This document shows, in pieces, positions 40,698 through 42,565 of a stretch of 64,000 nucleotides of DNA; position 1 is the stretch's first letter; the number at the start of each line of letters is the position of its first letter. Source of the DNA: Archangium lipolyticum (GTDB lineage: Bacteria; Myxococcota; Myxococcia; Myxococcales; Myxococcaceae); contig NZ_JANKBZ010000016.1 in the NCBI RefSeq assembly GCF_024623785.1, positions 124,001 through 188,000 of the forward strand. Reading direction: 5' to 3'. A program made the position numbers and the translations under genes. The notes below the pieces were generated by a model. It was not told where the DNA came from. It worked only from the letters and a program-made list of their open reading frames with translations, and searched no databases.

Positions 40698-41426
40698 TCA
40701 GGGCGTCACGGTCACGAGCGCGGTCTCGACATCGGAGCGGCCACCGAGAGAGGCCCACGTGTCCCAGAGGTGGCGGAAGCTCGTGAGGTGCGCGGAGGGG
40801 TCGAGACACCTGTCGCGGAGGGCCGCGAGGTAGTTGGCCTCGGTGGCGATGCCCGGCCGCTCCTTCGTGTACGAGTGGCCGTGATGCCGGAAGACGTGGC
40901 GGAGGTACTCGAGGTGGAACCCCGCCCGTTCGAGCGGATTGCCCTGGGGGCAGCCCATCCGCTCCGGGTCATCGTTCGAGACATCGTAGAAACGCTTGAG
41001 CTCGGCGAGCGCCGCTTCGGGATTCCGGGGGACGAGCCTGCGGTGTCCGAGCAACCAGCTCTCGACGCAGCAGTCCGCGACGATGACGTGGACCTGCCCC
41101 TGGTAGTGGATGCCCCTGCCGCGCAACTCCCGCGTCGCGTTCGCCAGGATGGACAGCACCTCCTGCCGCCGTTCGGCGGAGGAGAGCTGCTCGGCATCGA
41201 TGCAGATGAAGAGGTGGTCGGCCCCATGCTGGGCGGAGTCCTCGAGCGCTTTGGGGATGCGCTGGAGATAGGACGGGTAGCCCATGCCGGCGAGGATGAA
41301 GAAGGAGCCCGTCGTGAGGTCCGCGGGGTTGTCCACTGCGCGGAACAGGGGGAAGCAGTGGCCTAGCCAGGCCTTGTAGAGCTTCTTCTCGGTGCGCCGG
41401 CCCTCGACGAGGAAGTAGAGCTTCAC
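40698..41426 (-). CDS. TOPRIM/RloB-like (DUF4276-like) protein of a two-gene defence-like module
   Basis: 242 residues from GTG 41426, whose first bases overlap the ATPase stop (GTGA). The N-terminal line KLYFLVEGRRTEKKLYKAWL carries the TOPRIM-like Glu. LFICIDAEQ supplies the acidic residues, and VADCCVESWLLG matches the conserved Glu-x-Trp-Leu of RloB/DUF4276 proteins. TOPRIM proteins of this sort cut nucleic acids and are partners of AAA ATPases in Abi, OLD-type and PARIS-type phage defence. Exact family is not certain from sequence alone. Confidence 0.7.
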   Translation of the reverse strand: MKLYFLVEGRRTEKKLYKAWLGHCFPLFRAVDNPADLTTGSFFILAGMGYPSYLQRIPKALEDSAQHGADHLFICIDAEQLSSAERRQEVLSILANATRELRGRGIHYQGQVHVIVADCCVESWLLGHRRLVPRNPEAALAELKRFYDVSNDDPERMGCPQGNPLERAGFHLEYLRHVFRHHGHSYTKERPGIATEANYLAALRDRCLDPSAHLTSFRHLWDTWASLGGRSDVETALVTVTP

Positions 41427-42565
41427 TCCATGCCCTCCTCGAACTCGGGCGAGTTGATGAGCCGGATGAAGTCGTCCTGGGCGGAAGTGCCCTGCAACGC
41501 GGCGATCTCCGAGGCGGGCGTGACGCGCACGGTGCTTCCCTTGCGCCGCACGAGCTTCCAATGGGTCTTGGGGATGTTGTTGATGATGTAGGGGTGATGG
41601 CTGGTGATGATGAATTGCAGGTCTTTGGCGCGCGACAGGACGAAGTCGGTCAGCGGGCCCATGCAGTTCACGCCGAGGCTGTTCTCGAACTCGTCGATGA
41701 GGACCACGGTCCCGGCGGGGGCGAGCATCAGGTCCACGAGGTGGTTGAGCGTGCGCGCCATTCCGGAGGAGATGTCCTGGGATTCGATCCAGGTGGGAAC
41801 ACCTCGCTCCTTGAGTTTGAAGGACAGGCGATCCCGGGGGCCCCCCCTCTGTGTGTATGATTCTCGTTGGTTCACGATGACATCTTCGACGGAGGGGAAG
41901 ATGTCGATGAAAAGCTGTTTGAACCGCTCGAATTGCTCGACGAAGCCATTCTGCAGCACGAAAGCCTTCACGACAGGCTGCAGGCCAACAAGGCCACGCA
42001 ATGATTCGAGAGTAGGGAATCTCCTGAGCATGCCACGTGCATTGACGACAATGGATGCAGTGCTCTGTGCGTCCATGACCCGCAGGAAGCACGTCGCGAA
42101 TGCCTGGCGCAACCGTACGATGGATGGCTCATCCAGGAGTTGAAGGGCACTCTCGGTGCGGTTGAGCGCCGGTAGTTCTCTGCTACCGAACAAGAAACGG
42201 TGCGGGTCTCGTTCGACGAGCTGCCCTTCTCCACTGCTGTGGAGATGCTCCGAGAGAACGACCACGTTGCTGTTCTTGGCCGGGGCTCCACCTTCTTCCT
42301 CTGGCGGCAGGTCGCGGTCCGCACTGTCGAACTGCCACCTGTAGTGCTGGCCCTCGTGTTCGAAGCAAAGGTCGAAGCGAACGCCCTGATCCGCGTCGGT
42401 GGTATCACCATTCCGGCCAAGCATGTAGATCGTGCGGATCGCCATCAGGATTCGCGTCTTGCCCACCCCCGACGCGCCCACGAGGAGGTTGAAGCGGTCC
42501 AGGTGCAGGTCGTCCAGCTTCCAGCCGGTCCGCTTGTCCTCGAAGGAGAGACTCTTCAGTCGCAT
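41423..42565 (-). CDS. AAA (AAA_15/21-like) ATPase, partner of the TOPRIM-like protein
   Basis: 380 residues from ATG 42565 (MRLKSLSFEDKRTGWKLDDL). An SMC/OLD-like N-terminal strand pattern leads to Walker A GASGVGKTR (about residue 32). Walker B TVVLIDEFENSLGV (about 278) and the switch-His line FIITSHHPYIINN (about 315) follow. Insert regions between the Walker motifs are predicted helical. Parts of the gene (roughly 41820-42160) look lower in GC than surrounding DNA, in line with horizontal origin. It is probably cotranscribed with the kinase upstream (109-bp gap) and certainly coupled to the TOPRIM-like gene. Confidence 0.8.
   Translation of the reverse strand: MRLKSLSFEDKRTGWKLDDLHLDRFNLLVGASGVGKTRILMAIRTIYMLGRNGDTTDADQGVRFDLCFEHEGQHYRWQFDSADRDLPPEEEGGAPAKNSNVVVLSEHLHSSGEGQLVERDPHRFLFGSRELPALNRTESALQLLDEPSIVRLRQAFATCFLRVMDAQSTASIVVNARGMLRRFPTLESLRGLVGLQPVVKAFVLQNGFVEQFERFKQLFIDIFPSVEDVIVNQRESYTQRGGPRDRLSFKLKERGVPTWIESQDISSGMARTLNHLVDLMLAPAGTVVLIDEFENSLGVNCMGPLTDFVLSRAKDLQFIITSHHPYIINNIPKTHWKLVRRKGSTVRVTPASEIAALQGTSAQDDFIRLINSPEFEEGME

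Follow-up and report, generated by a model that had tools for sequence, protein, structure and literature searches.

In the PARIS system, a hexamer of AriA sequesters AriB until a phage trigger frees it, whereupon AriB dimerises and cuts tRNA-Lys (PMC11455837, PMC12409363). When assayed for toxicity and its neutralisation, TOPRIM_OLD and RloB proteins paired with AAA antitoxins behaved as toxins; AbiL is an abortive system (PMC10440598). The two-metal site measured in the OLD nuclease BpOLD comprises E400, E404, D455-x-D457, T506-x-E508 and K562 (PMC6755086). Here we analyze a pair of genes from Archangium lipolyticum that resembles these systems and is very probably anti-viral, as a distinct form of split ATPase–TOPRIM defence that lies outside AbiL, HEC-01 and PARIS.

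A coupled ATPase and putative TOPRIM nuclease

The pair lies in a 64,000-nucleotide stretch (hereafter the window) of a 12.6 Mb genome, and is composed of two overlapping genes:

41423..42565, minus strand: gene A, SMC/Rad50-like ABC ATPase (AAA_21) and putative sensor or regulator, ATG start, 380 aa
40698..41426, minus strand: gene B, predicted OLD-type TOPRIM nuclease and putative effector, related to RloB, AbiLii and HEC-01B, GTG start, 242 aa
41423..41426, minus strand: GTGA stop/start overlap of A and B, pointing from its sequence to translational coupling

The coordinates, lengths and GTGA coupling given for the two genes in an initial annotation of this DNA were exact, with both genes on the minus strand, and every motif that it had cited was found in A and B. 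The low GC that it had remarked on for part of the ATPase gene was also borne out: gene A has a GC content of 60.5% (GC3 0.80), versus 67.5% for gene B (GC3 0.91) and 69.3% for the window.

Protein A was assigned to Pfam AAA_21 (1e-15) and matched the PADLOC models for AbiLi (1.8e-19) and AriA (7e-17), while a profile search with A matched the AriA chains in the PDB (2.8e-8). The closest folds to its AlphaFold2 model (pLDDT 89) were PtuA of retron/Septu systems (Z~19), followed by SMC/Rad50 heads (Z~17). The Walker A, SSGM, Walker B DExE and H-loop histidine motifs were kept in essentially all of the 72 A sequences:

42455..42478, minus strand: Walker A GASGVGKT, residues 30-37 of A; G30, S32, G35 and K36 invariant in 72 homologues
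41759..41770, minus strand: ABC signature SSGM, residues 266-269 of A; S266, G268 and M269 invariant in 72/72
41681..41707, minus strand: Walker B VVLIDEFEN, residues 287-295 of A; D291, E292 and E294 (DExE) invariant in 72/72
41588..41605, minus strand: H-loop TSHHPY, residues 321-326 of A; T321, H323 and H324 invariant in 72/72

In the ATPase tree, A formed its own supported group (100/98), which, given the few outgroup rows and long branches, shows only that A stands apart from the sampled relatives.

Fold and active site of protein B

The AlphaFold2 model of B, built with 82 sequences, was of high confidence (pLDDT 96.1, pTM 0.91). VIA matched it to PH0156 (Z 10.2) and, over nearly the whole length of B, to TOPRIM regions at the C-termini of OLD proteins (Z 9.1 and 8.2), the higher of these scores being that of 6nk8 (172 residues, rmsd 4.3); unrelated alpha/beta folds ranked lower (Z below 8). 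AriB was not in the VIA match list, an absence that excludes nothing. In BFVD, the best match of the model was an RloB-like viral protein (probability 1.00, E 1.9e-3). With the same model, Foldseek found nothing significant in the PDB (best E 0.047), and PDB sequence searches with B, as a single sequence or a profile, returned nothing relevant; the TOPRIM assignment is drawn from the VIA scores (Z 8-10), the RloB match in BFVD and the profile comparisons described below. As hhalign of B against the OLD TOPRIM sequences of the phylum matched the first motif alone (17%), the link between B and OLD is founded on fold and motif spacing.

Four conserved elements define the putative active site:

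41388..41405, minus strand: TOPRIM glutamate motif E8-G-R-R-T-E13 of B; E8 in 82/82 and E13 in 81/82; by motif equivalent to BpOLD E400/E404
41190..41198, minus strand: TOPRIM DxD motif D77-A-E79 of B; D77 in 82/82, position 79 D in 48 and E in 34; by motif equivalent to BpOLD D455/D457
41061..41069, minus strand: C120-x-E122 of B, RloB-type NPxFExW-like motif; both residues in 82/82; spacing of BpOLD T506-x-E508
40863..40871, minus strand: Y186-x-K188 of B, candidate catalytic lysine; Y186 in 82/82 and K188 in 80/82

The order of the motifs and their x-spacings agree with those of BpOLD, the first glutamate pair being one residue wider in B, and the C120-x-E122 region was aligned by hhalign to NPCFELW of AbiLii. 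Judged from motifs, profiles and spacing rather than from superposed coordinates, the acidic site of B appears to correspond to the two-metal site of BpOLD, and K188, likewise not superposed, is a possible counterpart of K562. By its modelled fold and acidic motifs, B can be confidently placed in the OLD-type TOPRIM nuclease superfamily, and nuclease activity of this protein is very likely.

Distribution and obligate pairing

Homologues of B were found in 7 of the 193 genomes of the phylum sample (window genome included), and also on 7 plasmids, one gut-virome contig, 7 viral contigs and at 80 genome loci. Among their hosts are cyanobacteria, Bacteroidota, Myxococcota, Desulfobacterota and Magnetococcales, as well as Spirochaetes, Planctomycetota, Clostridia, Acidobacteriota and one Thermoplasmatota (archaeal) MAG. 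Wherever the contig extended far enough ahead of a B homologue, a homologue of A or its remnant lay directly upstream. With one exception, the two genes of the 84 homologous pairs were -4 to +43 nt apart, -4 being the commonest value. The common gene order of these 84 pairs and their spacing show that the A-B arrangement is not due to chance. On the inspected plasmids, no third gene accompanied the pair consistently in the annotation.

The Rad50/SMC fold of A might suggest a housekeeping pair for nucleic-acid maintenance, composed of an SMC-like ATPase and a nuclease in the manner of SbcCD or Cran1; some OLD-family proteins are indeed not defensive, among them Cran1 of OLD class 5, which functions in the cell cycle (PMC12796447). 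However, the distribution within the phylum sample is very patchy, extending to absence from two of the six Archangium genomes, and the pair is carried by plasmids and prophages, making such a function very improbable.

An interchangeable chromosomal slot in Archangium

The pair occupies a single syntenic context in four of the six Archangium genomes. In a fifth (G169), the flanking genes abut without the pair to leave a clean empty site (positions 8194/10226 of L185 correspond to 7360/7345 of L196), from which the variable unit is about 2.0 kb and comprises just the two genes. In another (G161; L197, 9780-13927), the same flanks enclose an ATPase of the PDC-M38A type (2.9e-58) and a DUF3226 protein (2.1e-18), again joined by a GTGA overlap; genes for a response regulator and a KaiC-like protein accompany them in the slot of this genome. 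The site resembles a chromosomal position at which defence genes are exchanged, and its interchangeable content suggests that different ATPase–TOPRIM pairs swap at fixed chromosomal sites.

A phosphorylation input from the neighbouring DUF2381-kinase genes had been raised in the initial annotation, and a phosphorylation-controlled system formed by the pair with these upstream genes would be consistent with the two being same-strand neighbours in the window genome and its nearest relative (G143). This block adjoins the pair in those two genomes only, whereas in G165 and G177 the block is missing from beside the pair although the chromosomal context is the same; related kinases are also numerous in each genome, and none is annotated beside the pair on the inspected plasmids. 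The proposed input did not survive these comparisons, and a joint system is extremely unlikely.

Other features of the region and genome were recorded. Strong paralogues of the Ser/Thr kinase beside DUF2381 (window 42675-44465) number from several to a dozen in each Archangium genome, and many of them match over the full length, including the C-terminal part. A short palindromic CCCCTCTCCCTCTGGGAGAGGGACGGGGTGAGGG element at window 50190-50235 occurs in dozens of copies per Archangium genome searched, with a related copy at window 19211-19232. The window genome contains three HEC-01B-like genes (C49, C19 and C43; L149 for C49), and several ATPase–TOPRIM-type candidates may coexist in it.

Plasmids, prophages and the P2 hotspot

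Seven PLSDB plasmids carry the pair, five of them 9.8 to 34.8 kb in length. The homologous pair from Acinetobacter pittii (LC777725.1) is on a small mobilizable plasmid together with the gene for an OXA-72 carbapenemase. A 10-kb plasmid of Proteus terrae (NZ_CP152081.1; L014) has two annotated copies of the B gene and a flanking gene, and the ATPase beside one of the B copies is split by a frameshift. On plasmid p1 of Planktothrix (NZ_LR882935.1), the genes after the pair encode a DUF262 protein and then XamI-type restriction and modification proteins, and together these genes form a small plasmid defence cluster.

In three IMG/VR contigs (L099, L100 and L101) the pair was located between the gene for the P2 replication protein gpA (phrog_91) and the portal/terminase genes, the gpQ portal (phrog_68) having been tested in L099 and L101, and in a fourth (L098) the portal gene adjoins the pair. 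Among 5426 E. coli genomes, one has a P2-like prophage with a copy 100% identical to that of L101 at the corresponding position, making the pair testable in a laboratory strain. The gpA-gpQ locus of P2, where this phage carries old and tin, is a hotspot of anti-phage systems (Rousset et al., PMC9122126), and the prophage copies of the pair therefore sit in a recognised phage defence hotspot. Two further copies (L104 and L015) belonged to filamentous-type elements that also carry Zot genes. Around the homologues in other genomes, known defence families (PADLOC) were not clearly commoner among genes lying within 1.5 kb than among those beyond 4 kb; proximal and distal flanks were similar, and this near/far comparison did not show the enrichment of a classical defence island.

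The carriage of the pair by small plasmids and prophages could also indicate an addiction module, with B as toxin and A as antitoxin, selected for the stability of the element rather than for defence, and in related pairs the TOPRIM_OLD toxin is indeed neutralised by an AAA protein (PMC10440598). Yet the chromosomal site is either cleanly empty or filled by another candidate defence pair, copies are placed in the P2 old/tin hotspot, and A is damaged beside an intact B at two loci (L014 and L037), observations that render such a module distinctly unlikely. Broken copies were searched for toxin-antitoxin asymmetry, and the cases were too few to tell which gene is dispensable. A defence role of the pair is highly probable, and the initial reading of an ATPase with a TOPRIM/RloB-like partner as probable phage defence is upheld by the fold, the active site, obligate pairing, mobility, the P2 hotspot and slot exchange.

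Proposed mechanism

The best explanation of these results is that the pair is probably a self-contained two-gene anti-phage cassette, in which the ATPase senses and the TOPRIM nuclease acts. In this scheme, A would oligomerise and sense infection, while B would be a two-metal-ion TOPRIM nuclease that is held or controlled by A. Infection would change the state of A, leaving B free to cut nucleic acid, and the target would most likely be host RNA (tRNA), as for AriB, such that translation would stop and phage growth would be aborted. By analogy with PARIS and AbiL, A may restrain B, and B would be somewhat likelier to be an RNase than a DNase. The chances are about even that A acts as an inhibitor of B until triggered, and an RNA rather than DNA target is similarly finely balanced, while activation of B by A is a more tentative prospect. 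The intact B beside damaged A at two loci would be awkward for a B that is freely toxic without A.

Those two loci would be tolerable if B needs A, as in a standing A-B complex where A, with ATP bound, places B on phage DNA or activates it there in the manner of Gabija, Septu and OLD, with B cutting the invading DNA and no toxin being released. The best structural matches of A, PtuA and Rad50, are in keeping with such a complex, as is the DNA cleavage measured for OLD TOPRIM nucleases (PMC6755086). However, separate ATPase and TOPRIM genes with a short effector of the RloB/AriB type are the layout of PARIS and AbiL, which are toxin-antitoxin or abortive systems (PMC10440598, PMC11455837), and DNA cleavage by a standing complex is possible although rather unlikely.

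Comparison with known systems

Standard models captured little of protein B: it fell below the Pfam RloB threshold (16.4 bits; cut-off 31.5), and PADLOC returned nearly nothing for it, with AbiLii unmatched. The relationship was clearer across the family: of 82 homologues, weak matches were given by 76 to AbiLii, 65 to Pfam RloB, 60 to DUF4276 and 44 to one HEC-01B model. Profile comparison by hhalign linked B to AbiLii (94%, 1e-7) and HEC-01B (94%, 9e-8) and, less strongly, to DUF4276 (65%), versus 0.1% for the control profile of A; no similarity to relatives of DUF4435/AriB was detected in a small alignment (0.2%). Because AbiLii and HEC-01B were matched to each other at just 46%, B is placed between AbiLii/RloB and HEC-01B, and since it is nearer by profile to both than they are to each other, knowledge of its trigger and target could connect systems at present classified separately.

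The pair is like AbiL in its two genes, an AAA_21 ATPase and then an RloB-like TOPRIM effector, and in the alignment of B with AbiLii at VEG..TE, DxD and NPCFExW. In contrast to the pair, however, genuine AbiLi proteins encoded beside AbiLii in the same phylum scored 314-323 bits in PADLOC, versus 68 for window A, and genuine AbiLii reached 102 bits (L108 checked) where window B had no match; A also differs from AbiLi in its termini and P-loop. The PADLOC candidate HEC-01 (HEC-01A/B, DUF4276-type) similarly combines an ATPase with a TOPRIM-like partner, but window B gave an E of 0.037 on HEC-01B (PDLC04200), where the best members in the phylum reached 1e-43 to 1e-101. PARIS (AriA/AriB, proposed OLD class 4) shares the separate genes for an ABC ATPase and a TOPRIM nuclease, and A resembles AriA in the PADLOC and PDB profile searches, although PtuA and SMC proteins lead its structural list; B, unlike AriB, has no Pfam DUF4435 match, in line with the hhalign result. 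The description in the initial annotation of the pair as resembling AbiL and PARIS without matching them exactly was accurate. The pair was not assigned to AbiL, HEC-01 or PARIS: genuine members score far higher, similarity to AriB is lacking, and the ATPase groups separately.

More distant likenesses were evaluated in the same way. The PDC-M38 candidate of PADLOC (ATPase plus DUF3226) occupies the same slot in a congener, with two genes and a GTGA overlap, but window A scored 2e-7 to 3e-7 on PDC-M38A versus 2.9e-58 for the G161 pair, and these are different sequence families. A has the ATPase fold of PtuA and B the TOPRIM fold of OLD, as in Gabija/OLD and Septu/retron systems; however, OLD and GajA fuse both domains in one protein, the partner in Septu is an HNH protein, and neither a helicase (GajB) nor an RT gene, as in Gabija and retrons, was annotated with the pair on the inspected plasmids. 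Our literature search, which did not extend to preprints and may have missed a recent name, found no paper describing the pair, nor any under the names HEC-01 or PDC-M38. The 2023 PADLOC models do not cover the pair despite its recurrence in cyanobacteria, Bacteroidota, Myxococcota, Desulfobacterota and other groups. It may tentatively be regarded as a lineage of its own within split ATPase–TOPRIM immunity, as yet without a name, that spans numerous phyla of bacteria and reaches at least one archaeal MAG, and whose trigger and nucleic-acid target would be unlike those of PARIS, AbiL and Gabija.
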